Source of the DNA: Massilia sp. CF038
GTDB lineage: Bacteria; Pseudomonadota; Gammaproteobacteria; Burkholderiales; Burkholderiaceae_D
Direction of reading: 5' to 3'
Assembly (NCBI RefSeq): GCF_900129765.1
Contig: NZ_FQWU01000001.1
Location: 620,001 to 684,000, forward strand
DNA length: 64,000 nucleotides
The notes beneath the pieces were generated by a model. It had not been told where the DNA came from, made no database searches, and worked only from the letters and a program-made list of their open reading frames with translations. Positions 22,785 to 51,900 of the stretch are shown one piece after another; the stretch's first letter is position 1, and each line of letters starts with the position of its first letter. A program made the position numbers and the translations under genes.

Positions 22785-23717
22785 TTATCGCATTGCAGTG
22801 ACGATCTGTTTCAGCTTGCCCGAATCGGCGCAGAAGGCACGAATGCCTTCGGCCAGCTTTTCGGTCGCCATGGCATCTTCATTCATCATGAAACGGAAGG
22901 TCTTTTCATCGAGCGCAACTTTCTCGATCGATACCGAACTCGTTTCCGCACCCAGCTTGCGCTCCACCGCGCCCTCGGTCTCGGCCAGCTTTTGCAGCAG
23001 GTCAGGGCTGATGGTCAGCAGGTCGCAGCCGGCCAGTTCCAGGATCTGCGAGGTATTGCGGAAACTCGCGCCCATCACTTCGGTCTTGTAGCCAAACTTG
23101 CGGTAGTAGTTGTAGATGCGCTTGACCGACTGCACGCCCGGATCTTCGGCGCCGGTGTAATCGATGCCGGTGGTCTTTTTGAAGTAATCGTAAATGCGCC
23201 CGACAAACGGCGAAATCAATTGCGCGCCCGCTTCGGCGCAGGCGATCGCCTGCGGCAGCGCGAACAGCAGCGTCATGTTGCAGCGGATGCCTTCCTTCTG
23301 CAAAATCTCGGCGGCGCGGATGCCTTCCCAGGTCGAGGCAATCTTGATCAGCACGCGTTCGCGGCCGGCACCGGCCTCTTCGTACAGCGCGATCAGCTCG
23401 CGGCCCTTGGCCACCGTGGCGGCAGTGTCGAACGACAAGGCAGCGTCCACCTCGGTCGAGACACGGCCGGGAATGATCTTCAGAATTTCCATGCCGAACG
23501 CGACCAGCACGCGGTCAATGATGTCGCCCGTGGACAGATTTGGATGGTCCTTGATGGCCTTTTCCAGCAGCGGCTTGTACTCGGGCTTTTGCACCGCCTT
23601 CAGGATCAGCGACGGATTGGTCGTCGCGTCCTGCGGGGTGAATTGTTTGATGGACTGGAAGTCGCCCGTGTCGGCAACGACGGTCGTGAATTGCTTGAGT
23701 TGTTCGAGTTGATTCAT
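22785..23717 (-). CDS. tal: Transaldolase
   Basis: This 310-residue class I transaldolase exchanges three-carbon units between sedoheptulose 7-phosphate and glyceraldehyde 3-phosphate. Motifs include [12 protein letters not shown] near residue 30, the Schiff-base lysine in [12 protein letters not shown] near residue 130, and [25 protein letters not shown]. Length is typical for TalB. It is 48 bp downstream of hexR on the same strand, so zwf, hexR and tal together look like a pentose-phosphate operon. Confidence 0.97.
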
Positions 23718-23765: not shown

Positions 23766-24620
23766 CTAGCCAATGAATGAATCGAATTGCATGTCAAATT
23801 CCTGCAGGGCTTTTTGCGCATTCTGCATCTTTTTGCGGAACTCCGGACCACGCTGCAATGCGAGTCCAACGGCCAGCACATCAATCACCACCAGGTAAGC
23901 CAGGCGCGCCGAAATCGGCGTGTAGGGGTCGGTGTTGAAGACCAGGTCGATCGGAATCAGCACGGTGGCCAGGTCGGCCAGTGGCGTGCCCGACGGCGCC
24001 AGCACAATCACATCGGCGCCGCCGCGGCGCGCCAGCTTGACCGAGCGCACCAGGGCGGGGCTGTTGCCGCGCTGCGAGATGGCCACCACCGCGTCGCCGC
24101 TGTGCAGCAGGGCCGCGGCAATGCTGTGGATGTTCGGATCGGCATAGGCCACGGTGGGCACGCCGGAGCGGAAGAATTTGTGCTGGGCGTCAGTGGCCAC
24201 TATGCCGGATGTGCCCTGGCCATAGAACTCGATCTTGCTGGCGCGCGAGAGGATATCGAGCGCGCGCTGAATCGCTTCCGGGTTCAGGTTGTTGCGCAAG
24301 TCGAGCAGGGTGTTGATCGAGCGGCTGCAGATTTTGTTGACCAGGTCGGAGGCCAGATCGTCCTGGGCCGGCTGTTCATTCACGCCCGGCATGGCCAGGG
24401 CCAGTCCCTGGGCCAGTTTCAGCTTGAATTCGTGCCAGCCGTCGTAGCCGAGGGTGCGGCAGAAACGCACCACGGTTGGTTCGGACACCTGCGCGCTTTT
24501 GGCCAGCGCGGTGATGTTCTGGCTGACCGTGGCGGCCGGGTGTTCAAGCACGGCAAGCGCGACTTTTCGCTCCGATTTGGAGAGGGAGTCAAGCTGGGTG
24601 CGGATGGAGTCAAGAAGCAT
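23766..24620 (-). CDS. hexR: HexR/RpiR-family regulator of glucose metabolism
   Basis: This 284-residue regulator has an N-terminal RpiR-type helix-turn-helix (SERKVALAVLEHPA, then ITALAKSAQVSEPTVVRFCRTLGYDGWHEFKL) and a C-terminal SIS sugar-phosphate domain (IEFYGQGTSGIVATDAQHKFFRSG, VVAISQRGNSPALV). In pseudomonads HexR represses zwf, edd and gap genes and is released by 2-keto-3-deoxy-6-phosphogluconate. Here it lies downstream of zwf and upstream of tal. HexR-like boxes are present before zwf, pgi and edd. The start at ATG 24620 lacks a good ribosome binding site, and its first 23 codons are repeated three times upstream. Confidence 0.92.
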   Translation of the reverse strand: MLLDSIRTQLDSLSKSERKVALAVLEHPAATVSQNITALAKSAQVSEPTVVRFCRTLGYDGWHEFKLKLAQGLALAMPGVNEQPAQDDLASDLVNKICSRSINTLLDLRNNLNPEAIQRALDILSRASKIEFYGQGTSGIVATDAQHKFFRSGVPTVAYADPNIHSIAAALLHSGDAVVAISQRGNSPALVRSVKLARRGGADVIVLAPSGTPLADLATVLIPIDLVFNTDPYTPISARLAYLVVIDVLAVGLALQRGPEFRKKMQNAQKALQEFDMQFDSFIG

Positions 24621-24641
24621 CGAGGTGTCTGAATAAAGTTA

Positions 24642-24726
24642 CATCGTCCTCGCGAAGGCGGGGACCCATTCCACGCTGCCGAAGTTGATCAGCGTGCTAT
24701 GGGCACCCGCCTTCGCGAGTGCGATG
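24642..24726. repeat. REP inverted pair, array unit 1
   Basis: Units at 24642-24669 (CATCGTCCTCGCG ... GGGGACCCAT) and 24699-24726 (ATGGGCACCCGCC ... GAGTGCGATG) face each other across a 29-bp spacer. The pair lies in the hexR leader, 22 bp before the start codon. Confidence 0.9.
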
Positions 24727-24750
24727 TGGTGCGCTGCAGTCTTCCTGCAG

Positions 24751-24818
24751 CCAAGCGCGACTTTTCGCTCCGATTTGGAGAGCGAGTCAAGCTGGGTGCG
24801 AATGGAGTCAAGAAGCAT
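24751..24818 (-). pseudogene. hexR 5' fragment, copy 1
   Basis: This 68-bp copy encodes MLLDSIRTQLDS ... KSERKVAL, identical in protein to the start of the true gene, then breaks into GCRK and REP sequence. The frame runs on to a stop at 24639, giving a 60-residue chimera. It is a truncated duplicate that retains its start codon. Confidence 0.9.
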
Positions 24819-24838
24819 GGGGTATTTAATATTCGTTA

Positions 24839-24923
24839 CATCGTCCTCGCGAAGGCGGGGACCCATTCCACGCTACCGAAGTTGATCAGCGTGCTATGGG
24901 CACCCGCCTTCGCGAGTGCGATG
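24839..24923. repeat. REP inverted pair, array unit 2
   Basis: Units at 24839-24866 and 24896-24923 repeat unit 1 almost base for base (one difference in the spacer). Confidence 0.9.
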
Positions 24924-24947
24924 TGGTGCGCTGCAATCTTCCTGCAG

Positions 24948-25015
24948 CCAAGCGCGACTTTTCGCTCCGATTTGGAGAGCGAGTCAAGCTGGGTGCGGAT
25001 GGAGTCAAGAAGCAT
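24948..25015 (-). pseudogene. hexR 5' fragment, copy 2
   Basis: A second 68-bp copy of the hexR head. Its frame ends at 24836 after passing through the REP pair. Confidence 0.9.
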
Positions 25016-25035
25016 GGGGTATTTAATATTCGTTA

Positions 25036-25097
25036 CATCGTCCACGCAGCCGAAGTTGATCAGCGTGCTATGGGCACCCGCCTTCGCGAGTGCGATG
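25036..25097. repeat. REP pair with deleted left unit, array unit 3
   Basis: The left REP is cut to CATCGTCC (25036-25043) by a 23-bp deletion, and the right unit at 25070-25097 is intact. The deletion changes the array period from 197 to 174 bp, a multiple of three, which opens a continuous frame through copies 3 and 2 (24836-25189). Confidence 0.85.
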
Positions 25098-25121
25098 TGG
25101 TGCGCTGCAATCTTCCTGCAG

Positions 25122-25189
25122 CCAAGCGCGACTTTTCGCTCCGATTTGGAGAGCGAGTCAAGCTGGGTGCGGATGGAGTCAAGAAGCAT
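25122..25189 (-). pseudogene. hexR 5' fragment, copy 3 (outermost)
   Basis: The copy nearest zwf. Its upstream leader (25190-25238) matches the leader of the true hexR gene. Its frame continues in phase into copy 2, giving a 117-residue open frame made of two 58-residue repeats. I regard this as a by-product of duplication rather than a gene. Confidence 0.9.
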
Positions 25190-25210
25190 CGAGGTGTCTG
25201 AATAAAGTTA

Positions 25211-25310
25211 CATCGTCCTCGCGAAGGCGGGGACCCATTCCACCTGACCGAAGTCGTTCAGCGTGGAATAGGCACCGAGTCGTCGGACCGCCGCCTTCAC
25301 GAGTGCGATG
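25211..25310. repeat. REP pair, diverged, after zwf
   Basis: The left unit (25211-25238) is canonical. The right unit (about 25268-25310) carries an extra 15 bp, GAGTCGTCGGACCGC, inside its arm. The core of that insert (GAGTCGTCGGACC) appears again in the REP-like element at 27.0 kb. Confidence 0.7.
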
Positions 25311-25325
25311 TGGTGGTGCGCTGGA

Positions 25326-25361
25326 GTCTTCCTCCAGCGCCTGTTCGCGCCATTGCAAACC
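25326..25361 (-). pseudogene. Relic of a second zwf C-terminus
   Basis: On the minus strand these 36 bp read GLQWREQALEED. The authentic zwf ends GLQWREEALPED, encoded at 25377-25412. The two differ at 9 of 36 bases, mostly at third or synonymous positions in the first codons (GGC/GGT, CTG/TTG, CAG/CAA) and near the end (GAG/GAA). The copies are exactly 51 bp (17 codons) apart. Divergence that preserves the protein suggests a true zwf tail from another allele, cut on its 3' side by a REP hairpin. It overlaps a perfect 9-bp stem-loop at 25318-25340 (GCGCTGGAG, TCTTC, CTCCAGCGC). Confidence 0.6.
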
Positions 25362-25373
25362 ATTGTGGTGTGT

Positions 25374-26840
25374 TTAGTCCTCGGGCAGCGCTTCTTCGCG
25401 CCACTGCAGGCCGTCACGGCCGATCAGGGCGCTCGCGGCGGCCGGGCCCCAGGTGCCGGCGCTGTATGGAATCGGCACGCTGTCATCTTCTTCCCAGTAA
25501 TCGAGAATCGGTTCCACCCATTCCCACGCCGCTTCCAGTTCGTCGCCGCGCATGAACAGGGTCAACTGGCCGCGCAGCACATCGAGCAGCAGGCGCTCGT
25601 AAGCATCCATACGCGGGGTCTTGAACTGTTCGCGGAAGTCGAGTTCGAGCTCGGCCTGCTTGAGGCGCATGCTGTCGCCCGGGGTCTTGGCCATCAGGTT
25701 CATCGACAAGCCTTCGTCCGGCTGCAGGCGAATCACCAGGCTGTTGGGCTGGAAGCTGCTGGTCGGCTGGTTGAAAATCGAATGCGGGATCTGCTTGAAG
25801 CGCACCACGATTTCGGCCAGGCTGTCTGCCATGCGCTTGCCGGTGCGCAGATAGAAGGGCACGCCGGCCCAGCGCCAGGTGTCGATTTCCGCTTTGATGG
25901 CCACAAAGGTTTCAGTGCTCGACTGTTGCGGCGCATCCGGTTCGTCGCGATAGCTTGGCACGGCCTTGCCGTCGACATGGCCGGCGCGGTACTGGCCGCG
26001 TACGATATTTTGCGACAGCGTGGTTTGCGTAAAGCGCTTGAGCGAACGCAGCACCTGCAGCTTGGCGTCGCGCACGGCGTCCGGGGCGATCGAGGTGGGC
26101 GGTTCCATGGCGACGATGCACAGCAGCTGCAGCAAGTGATTTTGCAGCATGTCGCGCAGCGCGCCCGAGGTGTCGTAGTAACCCATGCGGTTGCCCACAC
26201 CAAGCTTTTCGGCAATGGTGATCTGGACGTCGGAAATCCATTCGCGGCGCCACAGCGGCTCGAACAGCACGTTACCAAAGCGCAGCGCCAGCAGGTTCTG
26301 TACGGTCTCTTTGCCGAGGTAGTGGTCGATCCGGTAGATCTGCGATTCGGCGAACACCTTGCCGACTTCAAAGTTGATCTGCTTGGCCGATTCCAGGTCG
26401 CGCCCGAGCGGCTTTTCCAGCACCACGCGCGAGTTGGGCGTGGCCAGGCCGACTTCGGCCAGGTTGTCGCAGATTTGCGCAAACAGGTGCGGCGGCGTGG
26501 CCAGATAGTAGACGCGGGTGAGCTTGTCGTCGCTGCGCATGGCCGCCGTCAGCGGCGCGTAGGTGGACGCGTCGGTCGCGTTGAGCGACACGTAGACGAT
26601 GCGCTTGATGAATTTGTCCCATGCGGCCTGGGCCGGGTTTTTGACGTGCGGCCTGGAGGTGCTTTCGACGGTGGCAACGAATTCTTCTTGCGACCATTCG
26701 TGGCGGCCGACGCAAATGATGCGGGCCGTGGCCGGCAGGTCGTTGGCGACGTCGCGCGCGTACATTGCGGGCAGCAGCTTGCGCATTGCCAGATCGCCGC
26801 TGCCGCCAAAGAGAACGAGGTCAAAATCGGTAAGTGCCAT
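25374..26840 (-). CDS. zwf: Glucose-6-phosphate 1-dehydrogenase
   Basis: From ATG 26840 the enzyme is 488 residues. It has the NADP-binding start (FDLVLFGGSGDLAMRKL), the substrate-binding and catalytic motif YRIDHYLGKETVQN, and the C-terminal Zwf domain. It oxidises glucose 6-phosphate to 6-phosphogluconolactone, feeding both the Entner-Doudoroff and pentose phosphate routes. The upstream ATG at 26894 would add an implausible His-rich leader. Two HexR-like boxes lie 97-143 bp upstream. hexR and tal follow on the same strand after the repeat array. No 6-phosphogluconolactonase of the Pgl/DevB type is present nearby. Confidence 0.96.
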   Translation of the reverse strand: MALTDFDLVLFGGSGDLAMRKLLPAMYARDVANDLPATARIICVGRHEWSQEEFVATVESTSRPHVKNPAQAAWDKFIKRIVYVSLNATDASTYAPLTAAMRSDDKLTRVYYLATPPHLFAQICDNLAEVGLATPNSRVVLEKPLGRDLESAKQINFEVGKVFAESQIYRIDHYLGKETVQNLLALRFGNVLFEPLWRREWISDVQITIAEKLGVGNRMGYYDTSGALRDMLQNHLLQLLCIVAMEPPTSIAPDAVRDAKLQVLRSLKRFTQTTLSQNIVRGQYRAGHVDGKAVPSYRDEPDAPQQSSTETFVAIKAEIDTWRWAGVPFYLRTGKRMADSLAEIVVRFKQIPHSIFNQPTSSFQPNSLVIRLQPDEGLSMNLMAKTPGDSMRLKQAELELDFREQFKTPRMDAYERLLLDVLRGQLTLFMRGDELEAAWEWVEPILDYWEEDDSVPIPYSAGTWGPAAASALIGRDGLQWREEALPED

Positions 26841-26936
26841 AGTGTATGTTCGCAGTAAGTGGGTGCCGTGATGATGATGCCGCCATCGTGCCATTGGGGG
26901 CGCACGCGAAGCGCGGAGTCGCGCTGCAGCTGGTCA

Positions 26937-26951
26937 TGTAAATTTACTACA
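26937..26951. promoter_or_regulatory. HexR-like box 1 upstream of zwf
   Basis: TGTAAATTTACTACA is a near-palindrome of the form TGTA-N7-TACA, matching the known HexR half-site spacing. It lies about 97 bp before the zwf start. Confidence 0.7.
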
Positions 26952-26968
26952 TAAAATCACGATTTGCA

Positions 26969-26983
26969 AGAAATTTTACTACG
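26969..26983. promoter_or_regulatory. HexR-like box 2 upstream of zwf
   Basis: AGAAATTTTACTACG matches box 1 at 11 of 15 positions and has the same well-conserved right half, TTTACTAC. It is centred 32 bp from box 1, about three helical turns, so the two could be bound on the same face. Confidence 0.5.
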
Positions 26984-27007
26984 AAACTGTGGGAGATTTT
27001 GGTCCGC

Positions 27008-27056
27008 ATGGCAAGATGCGCCGAGTCGTCGGACCCCGCCGACGCGAGGGCGATGC
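27008..27056. repeat. Degenerate REP-like element
   Basis: ATGGCAAGATGCG is followed by CCGAGTCGTCGGACC and CCGCCGACGCGAGGGCGATG. The end matches the REP right arm, and the middle carries the same GAGTCGTCGGACC insert as the element at 25.27 kb. It lies between the zwf promoter and the end of the histidine kinase gene. Confidence 0.55.
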
Positions 27057-27067
27057 GGTGGTGCCGA

Positions 27068-28291
27068 TTATGCCAGGGGCAGGCGGACGGTGAAGGTGCT
27101 GCCCATGTCGCGGCCGGCGCTGGTCACTGTCAGCGAACCGCCGTGCAGCTCGACGATGCGGCGCGCGATGTACAGACCCAGGCCCAGACCCGTGGCGTTG
27201 GCCTGGGTTTGCAAGGTGAAGGCGCCAAACACGTGCGGCAGATCGGCTGCGGCAATGCCCTGACCATTATCCGTCACTTCGATCTCGAGGTGTGAGCTTC
27301 CTTGTGCGATGCCGATTTGAATCGCGCCCGCATCGGGCGTGAACTTGATGGCGTTCAGCAGCAGATTCCACAGCACTTGCTGCAGGCGCCGCCCGTCGGC
27401 CTGCAGCACGATGCCGTCACCATGGTCGGGTGGGAATACCGACAGCGCAATCGATTTGGCGTGGGCCTGTTCTTCGATGGTAGAGACGGCGTCGCGCAGC
27501 ACCCGTCCCAGGTCGGTCGGCACCAGTGCGATTGACATCTGCCCGGTCAGGGTGCGGGCGGCGTCGATCAGGTCTTCGACCATGCCCGCTTCCTGGCGCA
27601 CATGCACGCGCATGGCTTGCAGACCGCTTTCCACCTGGGGCGGCAAGTCCTTCACGGTACGCAGCAGCACTTCCACCCGCAGCGACAAAGCCGCCAGCGG
27701 CGTGCGCATCTCGTGCGACACGGTGGCCAGAAACAGGTCGCGTGTCTTGTTGACGCGGGTGAGTTCTTCAATCGTCTCGCGCTGGCGGTCGATGGTGCTG
27801 ACCAGCGTTCCAAGCAGCGCCGTGTAGGTGTCCATGCGCGCGTTCGACACGGGTGTCGTGAGCCGCACCTCGTTCCACAGTGCCTGCGACGAGACGCCCG
27901 TCAGGCGCGCAATCTTTTCGCATTCGAGCGGCGAGCTGAAATCGGAAAATGCCCAGCCATACACCAGCACCCCGTACACCTGGCCGAACTGCTGCAGCGG
28001 CGTGGCGCATACGCGCATGCCGTGCAGGCTGTCGCACTGGGCACCGTCGCTGGCCAGCACGCCCACCACCAGGCGCCGCTCGAGCGCGGTCCCGGCGCCG
28101 TCGTCGTGCCACAGGCTCGAGCCGCTCAGCAGACGCGCCGTGCCCGACGCCAGCAGCGGTCCCACCTGGCGCACACATTGAATGTCGTAGGCGGCCACCG
28201 CCAGGCCGGTGGCCTGGCTGAATTGACGCAGAGGCGTGCGCCAGCTGTCCCAGTCAGTCAGCGCGTCATCCGGCAGGGCGATGTTGATCAC
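27068..28291 (-). CDS. Soluble histidine kinase with PocR/GAF-like sensor
   Basis: The gene starts at GTG 28291, overlapping the KaiC-like stop (GTGA), so the two are translationally coupled. The 407-residue protein has no membrane segment. Residues 1-170 resemble a PocR/GAF-type ligand domain (LRQFSQATGLAVAAYDIQCV, then CATPLQQFGQVYGVLVYGWAF with nearby cysteines). A short coiled coil leads into the kinase core: H-box SHEMRTPLAAL, N-box NLLLNAIKFTPD, and G boxes DNGQGI and GLGLGLYIARR. No receiver gene follows, so its partner must lie elsewhere. Ligand and output are unknown. Confidence 0.9.
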   Translation of the reverse strand: MINIALPDDALTDWDSWRTPLRQFSQATGLAVAAYDIQCVRQVGPLLASGTARLLSGSSLWHDDGAGTALERRLVVGVLASDGAQCDSLHGMRVCATPLQQFGQVYGVLVYGWAFSDFSSPLECEKIARLTGVSSQALWNEVRLTTPVSNARMDTYTALLGTLVSTIDRQRETIEELTRVNKTRDLFLATVSHEMRTPLAALSLRVEVLLRTVKDLPPQVESGLQAMRVHVRQEAGMVEDLIDAARTLTGQMSIALVPTDLGRVLRDAVSTIEEQAHAKSIALSVFPPDHGDGIVLQADGRRLQQVLWNLLLNAIKFTPDAGAIQIGIAQGSSHLEIEVTDNGQGIAAADLPHVFGAFTLQTQANATGLGLGLYIARRIVELHGGSLTVTSAGRDMGSTFTVRLPLA

Positions 28292-35967: not shown

Positions 35968-35982
35968 CGTAAATTCACTACA
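35968..35982. promoter_or_regulatory. HexR-like box upstream of pgi
   Basis: CGTAAATTCACTACA matches the zwf box TGTAAATTTACTACA at 13 of 15 positions. It lies about 55 bp before the pgi start, in the pgi-edd divergent region. Confidence 0.65.
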
Positions 35983-36116: not shown

Positions 36117-36131
36117 TGTAGTAAAATTTCA
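36117..36131. promoter_or_regulatory. HexR-like box upstream of edd
   Basis: TGTAGTAAAATTTCA; its complement, TGAAATTTTACTACA, matches the zwf box at 13 of 15 positions. It lies 26 bp before the edd ATG, where binding would block initiation. Confidence 0.65.
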
Positions 36132-48932: not shown

Positions 48933-51900
48933 ATGTCAGATCAGAGCAAGAAGCCCTCCGCGCCCCGTAACGCCCCGCGTGAAGGCCAGCCAGGTGAACG
49001 CAGCGCAGGCCAGGCGCCGCGCAATGAAGCACGCCCGCCCCGCGCCCCGCGCGACCAGGCCGCGCGCAATGAAGCACGCCCGGACCGCACCCCGCGCGAC
49101 CAGCCGCCGCGTAACGATGCACGCCCGGACCGCGCCCCGCGCGACCAGCCGCCGCGTAACAACATCGTCCTCGCGCAGGCGGGGACCCATGGCACCGCCA
49201 ATCAGTCGCCACGCCCCGCGCAGCCCCGCGCGCGCCGCGACGGCCAGACCGACCGCACCCCGCGCCCGCCGCGCGAAGCCACCCCTGAACGCGCGCCGCG
49301 CGAACAACTCCGCACGCCCCTGCCACCGATCACCTTCCCCGAAGACCTGCCCGTCTCAGGCCGCCGCGGCGACATCGCCAAGGCACTGCTGGAAAACCAG
49401 GTCATCATTGTCTCCGGCGAAACCGGTTCCGGCAAAACCACCCAGCTCCCCAAGATCTGCCTTGAGCTTGGGCGCGGTGTCAAAGGCCTGATCGGCCACA
49501 CCCAGCCGCGCCGGATCGCGGCCTCCTCCACCGCCAAGCGCATCGCGCAGGAGCTGGGCACGCCGCTGGGCGAGCATGTAGGCTTCAAGGTGCGCTTTAC
49601 CGACACCCTCAAGCCGGGCGCCTACGTCAAACTGATGACCGACGGGATTCTGCTGGCCGAAACCCAGACCGACCCGCTGCTGCGCAATTACGACACCATC
49701 ATCATCGATGAAGCGCACGAGCGCAGCTTGAACATCGACTTCCTGCTTGGCTACCTCAAGCAGCTGCTGCCGCGCCGCCCTGATCTGAAAGTGATCATCA
49801 CCTCGGCCACGATTGACGCCGACCGCTTCGCGCGCCATTTCGGCACGCCCGACATGCCGGCGCCGGTGATCGAAGTATCTGGCCGCCTGTACAAGGTGGA
49901 AGTGCGCTATCGCCCGGTCGACCGTGATCCGGTCAATGTGCCGGTCCCGGAGGGCAAGCCAGTGCCCAAGGCGCAGGCCGCGCGCGAGAAGCGCGATCTG
50001 ATGGACGCCGTGGTCGAAGGCGTGGATGAACTGTGCCGCCTGGGCTCGGGCGACGTGCTGGTGTTCCTGCCGGGCGAGCGTGAAATTCGCGACTGTGCCG
50101 AAGCCCTGCGCAAGCACCATCCGCCGCATGTGGAAATCCTGCCACTGTTTGCCCGCCTGTCGGTGGAAGAGCAGGAGAAGGTCTTCAAGATCACCAACGC
50201 GCGCCGCATCGTGTTGGCAACCAACGTGGCCGAGACTTCGCTGACGGTGCCAGGCATCCGCTACGTGGTCGACGCCGGGCTGGCGCGGGTGAAGCGCTAC
50301 AGCTTCCGCAACAAGGTCGAGCAGCTGCAAGTGGAACCGATTGCCCAATCGGCTGCCAACCAGCGTGCCGGCCGTTGCGGCCGCGTTGCCGACGGCGTCT
50401 GCATCCGCCTGTACGAAGAGGACGACTTCAATCAGCGTCCCAAATTTACCGAACCCGAAATCCTGCGCTCTTCGCTGGCGGCCGTTATTTTGCGGATGAA
50501 GTCTTTGCATCTGACCGATGTGGAGACCTTCCCCTTCATTGAGCCACCACAGGGCCGCGCCATCGCCGACGGTTACCAGCTGCTGCAGGAAGTGGGGGCC
50601 GTTGACGATACCAACAACTTGACCCCGCTGGGCCACAAGCTGGCCAAGCTGCCGCTCGATCCGCGCGTGGGCCGCATGATTCTGGCCGCGCTGGACAACG
50701 CCTGCCTGACCGAGATGCTGATTGTCGCCTCGGCCCTGTCGGTGCAGGATCCGCGCGACCGGCCAATGGAGTACCAGCAGGCGGCCGATGAGGCGCACAA
50801 GAAGTTCGCGGACGAGAAGTCCGAGTTCCTCACTTATATCAAGATCTGGAAGTGGTTCGAAGACGCCATCGAACACAAAAAGACCAACCGCCAGCTGCAG
50901 GAAACCTGCCGCAGCAACTTCCTGTCCCAGGTGCGCTTGCGCGAATGGCGCGATGTGCATTCGCAGCTGCTGACCATCGTCAAGGAGCAGGGCTGGCGCA
51001 TGAACGAGCTGGCCGCCACTTACGAAAACCTGCACACGGCGCTGCTCACTGGCCTGCTGGGGAACATTGGCTTCAAGGCCGAGGACGAACCGGGCGCGGG
51101 CTACTTGGGCGCGCGCGGGATCAAGTTCCACATCTGGCCCGGTTCGTCGCTGCTGAAAAAGCCCGGCAAGTGGATCATGGCGGCTGAACTGGTGGAAACC
51201 ACGCGCTTGTACGCGCGCTGCGTGGCGCAGATTCAGCCCGAATGGATCGAACGGGTGGGCGCACACCTGCTGAAAAAATCGTGGGGCGAGCCGCGCTGGG
51301 AAAAACGCGCTGCCCAGGTGACGGCTTCGGAACGCGCGACCTTGCATGGCATTGTGATTTACAGCCAGCGGCGCATCAATTATGGTCAGTTCAACCCCTT
51401 CGAGGCGCGCGAGATCTTCATTCGCGACGCGCTGGTGCAGGGCGACTACGATACGCGCGCGCCGTTCTTCGCGCACAATCACAAGCTCATTAAAGAGATT
51501 GAAAACCTCGAGCACAAATCGCGCCGCCTGGATGTGCTGGTGGACGACCACTTGATCGCGGCCTTCTACGACAAGCTGATCCCGAACGATGTCGTCAACG
51601 GCGCCGGTTTCGAGAAGTGGCACAAGGACGCCACGCAGAAAGAACCCAAGCTGCTGTTCCTGAACCGTGAAGAGTTGATGCGCCACGAGGCCGCTGGTGT
51701 GACGACCGAGCTGTTCCCGAAAACCATGTCGGTGACCGGCATTGAAATGCAGCTGACCTATCACTTTGAACCGGGCAGCCTGCGCGACGGCGTGACGCTG
51801 TCGGTACCGCTGTTTGCGCTGAACCAGATGCCGCGCGAGCGCGTCGAGTGGCTGGTGCCCGGCATGCTGAAAGAGAAAGTGCACCTGCTGCTGAAATCGC

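Follow-up and report, generated by a model that had tools for sequence, protein, structure and literature searches.

A tandem array of REP pairs and gene ends between zwf and hexR in Massilia sp. CF038

Why should the beginning of a regulatory gene be repeated several times ahead of the gene itself? This question is raised by hexR of Massilia sp. CF038, which lies in a 64,000-nucleotide stretch of contig NZ_FQWU01000001.1 (positions 620,001 to 684,000), referred to here as the window and numbered from its first nucleotide. An earlier, sequence-only reading noticed that the hexR start is amplified together with inverted REP pairs, and offered two interpretations: decoy starts that tune the HexR level, or a neutral footprint of REP-mediated unequal recombination. 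We analysed the array, the genome around it and the same junction in relatives.

Layout of the array

On the minus strand, zwf (stop at 25374) is followed by a 753-nt gap, hexR (24620–23766) and tal (23717–22785), the identities of the three genes being backed by Pfam. A tandem array occupies the entire gap. The features are as follows.

26937–26951, minus strand: candidate HexR-type operator TGTAGTAAATTTACA, a conserved palindrome upstream of zwf
25374–26894, minus strand: zwf, glucose-6-phosphate dehydrogenase (Pfam G6PD_N and G6PD_C), TAA stop at 25376–25374, true start likely at 26840
25326–25361, minus strand: diverged duplicate of the zwf 3' end, reading GLQWREQALEED, 51 nt past the true end
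25207–25314, minus strand: unit 1 REP pair, long-arm subtype with an extra GGTCCGACGACTC
25123–25189, minus strand: hexR start copy 1, with leader A
25189 to 24836, minus strand: open reading frame of 117 aa from hexR copy 1, in frame through copy 2
25041–25101, minus strand: unit 2 REP pair, one arm with a 23-bp deletion
24949–25015, minus strand: hexR start copy 2, with leader B
24835–24927, minus strand: unit 3 REP pair
24752–24818, minus strand: hexR start copy 3, with leader B
24818 to 24639, minus strand: open reading frame of 59 aa from hexR copy 3, its stop 18 nt ahead of the authentic ATG
24638–24730, minus strand: unit 4 REP pair, immediately before hexR
23766–24620, minus strand: authentic hexR, RpiR-family regulator (Pfam HTH_6 and SIS), with leader A
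22785–23717, minus strand: tal, transaldolase (Pfam TAL_FSA), the next downstream gene

Most of the earlier description was borne out. The first 67 nt of hexR are present in four copies with minus-strand ATGs at 25189, 25015, 24818 and 24620 (the authentic one), separated by the 174, 197 and 198 nt described before, each copy adjoining an inverted REP pair or what is left of one. Both leader types were found as well, A before copy 1 and authentic hexR and B before copies 2 and 3, as was the 23-bp deletion, which takes away the greater part of an arm in the second pair and thus leaves unit 2 without a full REP pair. The end previously given for the array, 25238, needs correction, since the outermost REP pair reaches 25314 and the zwf-end copy lies beyond it.

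Copies 1 and 2 of the hexR start are identical, and copy 3 and the authentic start each deviate from them by one base; pairwise distances of at most two bases over 67 nt are far beyond chance. At the amino-acid level, the three extra ATGs share the first 22 hexR codons. The REP pairs measure about 93 nt where intact, in units 3 and 4, and 108 nt in the outermost unit, whose pair is of a different subtype with a longer arm. A small palindrome beside the REP shows a paired change from GGAG/CTCC to GCAG/CTGC. Given the near-identity of the remaining unit sequence, leaders A and B are too different from each other; no donor for either was found elsewhere in 1.66 Mb with up to three mismatches allowed.

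Sequence comparison further revealed a second zwf 3' end in the same frame as the first, reading GLQWREQALEED as against GLQWREEALPED at the true end. This diverged copy still reads as an in-frame zwf C-terminus; 27 of its 36 nt agree with the zwf end of the window itself, and other zwf ends reach up to 31 matches (median 27). REQALEED is absent from all 79 zwf ends read in relatives. A foreign allele that replaced zwf and left the former end behind is a candidate source of the copy. The final portion of the copy, in GCTGGAGGAAGACTCCAGC, can be aligned to the GCTGCAGGAAGA(C/T)TGCAGC that heads each inner unit, and the inner units open with CTGCAGGAAGA(C/T)T, which aligns to the end of the copy. 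Given this alignment, each unit is composed of a zwf-end fragment, a REP pair, a leader and a hexR start; what is repeated is thus the intergenic region together with the ends of both flanking genes. At the junction within the array, hexR codons 21–23 are joined to the zwf end across a common GCGCT. A junction between these two coding ends indicates that the first duplication did not take place between REP copies.

The array also calls for caution in annotation: it gives false extra hexR starts, and its open reading frames (at most 168 aa on the plus and 117 aa on the minus strand) are probably spurious.

REP family and tandem loci in the genome

We sampled 864 kb of the genome in two parts, one of 464 kb that contains the window and one of 400 kb from another place, both picked regardless of repeats, and defined a tandem locus by a TRF period of 60–500 nt and a score of at least 120. 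The REP of the array is of the CGTC type, its arm ACATCGTCCTCGCGAAGGCGGGGACCCA on the plus strand of units 1, 3 and 4 showing by eye a palindromic arm, a terminal CGTC and a CCA-like tail. This REP is dispersed and of high copy number, with 65 places in the 864 kb (30 and 35 in the two parts) and matches on at least 7 of 14 contigs, 40 of 320 candidates having been scored. All eight tandem loci of the sample overlap a CGTC-type REP. Random placement gave mean overlaps of 0.09 in the 464-kb part and 0.14 in the 400-kb part, and 0 of 5000 placements reached the observed value in either part, although the contrast is overstated because the null placed arrays anywhere and not in intergenic DNA only.

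At five of the eight tandem loci, hexR included, the unit contains ends of flanking ORFs, and the remaining three hold no clear gene end. The other four of the five, together with two loci from outside the 864-kb sample, are listed below.

C6:237975: the unit holds the 3' end of a WXXGXW gene and the start of an RVT_3 gene
C2:321094: the unit holds the 3' ends of two ORFs
C2:367745: the unit holds the 3' ends of two ORFs
C6:274406: the unit holds the 3' end of a DUF1569 gene
L005, outside the sample: the unit holds 57 nt from the start of a GNAT-like ORF
L013, outside the sample: the unit holds the final 46 nt of an aldehyde-dehydrogenase/MaoC ORF

Two of the four ORFs at the C2 loci were searched against Pfam, and neither gave a match. 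The pattern is not special to hexR.

Other genomes qualify the role of the REP. In 400 kb of G006, eight places with a REP of the same family are accompanied by no tandem locus, where about one would be expected at the rate of the window's genome; this speaks mildly against the REP having such an effect in every genome that carries the family. Conversely, 400 kb of G011 contain no CGTC-type REP place, yet two tandem loci, and 836 kb around hexR in 80 relatives hold two tandem loci, one of them in the zwf–hexR gap. Long-period repeats can therefore arise without a CGTC-type REP.

The 13-nt GGTCCGACGACTC that marks the unit 1 REP pair occurs five times in the 864 kb at up to one mismatch (window 25277 and 27023; C6:359260, 461996 and 462141), each time in a REP-like arm; one of these sites belongs to a remnant resembling a REP that lies a short distance upstream of the zwf promoter. 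It was not found in the 400-kb samples of G006 and G011. Elsewhere in the window, a 45-nt tandem repeat of 3.3 copies (49010–49156) is adjoined by a single REP arm at 49162–49190.

The genome carries three Y1_Tnp genes, and a CGTC-type REP pair lies less than 500 bp from one of them, 4 bp behind the stop of a neighbouring gene. Capture driven by a RAYT was considered and set aside, as the three genes show no clear tie to the CGTC-type REP. Two Y1 transposase genes, on contigs C9 and C7 (L184 and L185), are accompanied by repeats unlike the CGTC REP: TCGGGGTCAGACCTCAATACTG-like repeats flank the former on both sides, and GGGGACAGAGT and GACTGTGTCCC lie near the latter. These repeats may be the targets of the two transposases.

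The zwf–hexR junction in relatives and the origin of the array

Among the loci compared, G006 is the closest by DNA (hexR 89.7%, first of 111; zwf 90.7%, first of 110). In this assembly, which contains frameshifts, zwf and hexR overlap by one base (TGATG) without any insert. At the protein level, hexR identity is 89–97% in 23 relatives (L032–L054) and 81–84% in six more (L055–L060). We also collected 80 named relatives, 79 of which could be scored, the remaining one having no zwf on the contig. In the 79, the two genes overlap in 10 cases, are separated by 0–40 nt in 41 and by 41–140 nt in 24, and lie farther apart in 4. A search of 1.2 kb upstream, requiring at least 32 of 40 matches, revealed no second hexR start in any of them. 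Comparison of the gap in related genomes had been proposed as a check, and its outcome is that the array is absent from G006 and from all 79 scorable relatives. The same picture of the gap was obtained from 30 loci of the whole-genome collection, one of which is the window's own and many of which come from genomes that are also among the named ones; G013 was left out, as the stretch fetched carried a distant hexR paralogue. Among the genomes examined, the array is specific to the window's lineage, and the junction tolerates inserts.

Inspection by eye revealed that several of the longer gaps in relatives carry other palindromic elements, often followed by another zwf-end copy, and the gap of L071 is itself a two-copy tandem array. 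Such gap elements were seen in other Oxalobacteraceae at L065, L071, L073, L074, L076, L084, L086, L091, L092 and L094, and further at L096, L110, L122, L127, L128, L132, L078, L079 and L087. By eye, the element is about 100 nt long and reads CGCAGGCGCGG...CGCGAAACCCCTGC, and a zwf-end copy often stands after it, just before hexR; the element of L078, L079 and L087 is GGGTCGGACCCTGAGGGTCCGACCC-like, unlike the others. To judge from these gaps, the zwf–hexR junction looks like a repeated landing site.

We consider it probable that the array arose by tandem duplication of the whole zwf–hexR intergenic region around a CGTC-type REP pair, with breakpoints inside both genes. Initially, to judge from the relatives, a REP pair would have settled where zwf and hexR overlapped or nearly did so. 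Its hairpin may then have stalled replication, followed by a template switch at the short common GCGCT; as the junction suggests, this step would have duplicated a unit of about 197 nt comprising the zwf-end fragment, the REP pair, the leader and the hexR start. Afterwards, the near-identical units could have grown to four through unequal exchange or slippage. The 23-nt deletion, the replacement of a leader and the difference in REP-arm subtype would be later changes. Given that the REP of unit 1 is of a different subtype, the history is not a plain series of duplications. Such duplications would survive because the outer copies of zwf and hexR stay intact.

Microhomology was found at the hexR junction, where the zwf end and hexR codons 21–22 have GCGCT in common, and at C2:367745, where it is CTTGA; it is short or unclear at the remaining junctions inspected. 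The earlier proposal of REP-mediated unequal recombination is accordingly divided: it does not account for the first crossover, which joined the zwf end to hexR codons 21–22 at GCGCT, but it suits the later growth in copy number between units, which may have been gained and lost by such exchange.

That misjoined or duplicated reads created the units in the assembly is highly improbable. Repeats of 197 nt are difficult for short reads, which counts for such an artefact; however, short-read assemblies usually drop rather than gain such units. Moreover, a 23-nt deletion, two leaders and point changes distinguish the units from one another, and the array sits inside a 2.2-Mb contig, both of which make an artefact unlikely.

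Possible effects on hexR and comparison with known systems

The clearest change brought about by the array is the loss of the close zwf–hexR junction; in its place stands a structured spacer of 753 nt that contains three additional ATGs of the hexR type. The Shine-Dalgarno energies at the four hexR starts range from +0.1 to +0.4 kcal/mol, which is no match at any of them, the authentic one included; in 80 relatives, the median for hexR is -3.5, with 30 of 80 weaker than -2, and the random window median is -2.6. The accessibility of the four starts in predicted folds is likewise similar (0.64–0.75). Judged by these predictions, the extra starts could be about as usable as the authentic one, and this similarity keeps two models of function under consideration, each at low probability. 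In one of them, the extra ATGs and REP hairpins would catch ribosomes or promote mRNA decay and thereby lower HexR relative to Zwf, the number of units setting the level. In favour of this model, the extra ATGs agree in their first 22 codons at the amino-acid level and have one or other of the two leaders; with a Shine-Dalgarno energy and accessibility like those of the authentic start, they may attract ribosomes about as well. We nevertheless regard this model as unlikely, as similar duplications are also seen at genes unrelated to hexR, and at 3' ends, where there is no start to copy, and the array is common to 0 of the 79 relatives. The absence of a Shine-Dalgarno match says little in either direction, since zwf and tal of the same genome also have none and hexR in 30 of 80 relatives is similarly weak, and the differences between copies are too few to test constraint. 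In the other model, a chain of short ORFs would pass ribosomes from zwf to hexR and substitute for the lost TGATG coupling. The coordinates fit such a chain, running from ATG 25363 to a stop at 25208, from 25189 to 24836 and from 24818 to 24639, with each stop 17–18 nt before the next hexR-type ATG, and the ancestral junction was probably close. Yet the REP consensus, read by eye, has an open frame among its three in any case, and with units copied from one another the chain may require no more than one or two lucky frames. A spacing of 17–18 nt without a Shine-Dalgarno sequence is also not ideal for reinitiation, and we hold this relay to be very unlikely. The broader idea that REP pairs drive repeated duplication of intergenic regions and both gene ends with fast-changing unit number, the hexR array being a relay or attenuator of variable length that uncouples the repressor from zwf, appears improbable to us.

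An array of operators, in which the repeats would provide sites for HexR or a relative, is barely conceivable. The REP end makes a half-site-like TGTAAC ahead of both leaders, but the best match in the gap has five mismatches, a level also reached by some shuffled upstream regions, and the array contains no match to the candidate operator at up to three mismatches. The candidate operator upstream of zwf is itself well conserved among 77 relatives (29 exact, 44 with one mismatch, 1 with two and 3 with five to seven), and at up to three mismatches the window holds three sites against 0.15 expected. Two-mismatch sites lie at 35968–35982 and 36117–36131, between a pgi-like ORF on the minus strand (start 35914) and an edd-like ORF on the plus strand (start 36157), both named from sequence. 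The sites near zwf and these two ORFs suggest a small HexR- or RccR-type regulon. By comparison with the sites given in PMC5489143, TGTAGTAAATTTACA differs from the Pseudomonas HexR consensus TTGT-N7-8-ACAA and is nearer to the 15-bp RccR site. An internal hexR promoter of the consensus type was also sought and discarded: a scan of 24500–27100 for consensus promoters gave none inside the array.

Of the two earlier interpretations, tuning of HexR thus gained no positive evidence from operators, consensus promoters or Shine-Dalgarno matches, whereas the neutral footprint gained support, as the array is among the eight tandem loci centred on a REP in the 864 kb sampled and is restricted to the window's lineage as described above. 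On our best reading, microhomology-mediated duplication around a REP pair produced the array, which later expanded; the result would be lineage-specific and largely neutral. Any effect of the array on hexR is most probably slight or neutral. The decoy starts do exist in the sequence, and a part for them in setting the HexR level is a candidate only. The array looks like a by-product of hairpins disturbing DNA copying, not a designed switch. An odd local repeat becomes in this way an instance of a wider pattern, in which the intergenic region around a REP pair is at times duplicated with adjacent coding pieces. It shows a route by which the tight gene junction of an operon gives way to a long structured spacer, and REP-linked fork stalling with template switching becomes testable by plain genome comparison.

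Pseudomonas is already known to have REP clusters repeated in tandem together with their flanking DNA. The main text of Bertels and Rainey 2011 (PMC3116915) reports 16 ordered REPIN clusters, repeated with their flanks, in Pseudomonas fluorescens SBW25, the largest of which has four REPINs and an extra REP and exceeds 700 bp. With four units, one pair being damaged, the hexR array is an ordered tandem cluster and appears to belong to this kind. Like the SBW25 clusters, it consists of inverted REP doublets arranged head-to-tail with flanking sequence; unlike them, it derives from another REP family. That main text does not mention gene ends in the flanks or microhomology. The REP itself resembles the CGTC-tagged elements of Di Nocera et al. 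2013 (PMC3733652) in its arm CGTCCTCGCGAAGGCGGGGACC, its CGTC end, its head-to-head dimers and its intergenic location. In the main text of that work, which does not mention Janthinobacterium or Herminiimonas, grouped CGTC elements are rare except in Neisseriae and Wolbachia and are not associated with transposase genes. In contrast, tandem CGTC groups are common in the window's genome, and a REP pair is found close to a Y1 transposase gene, although 4 bp behind the stop of another gene.

In starved E. coli, 22 of 90 sequenced novel amplification junctions were at REP, and the authors prefer secondary structure over homology (PMC3161906). The hexR array shares with these events rearrangement junctions with microhomology. 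However, the E. coli events mostly span many kb and have the REP at the junction, whereas the hexR unit is about 0.2 kb and has the REP inside. The literature surveyed in part on REP duplication, gene ends and Massilia REPs gave no description of gene starts amplified with REPs. Compared with these systems, what appears to be new here is that the repeated flanks often include coding ends, in one case a gene start four times over, and that CGTC elements are often grouped.
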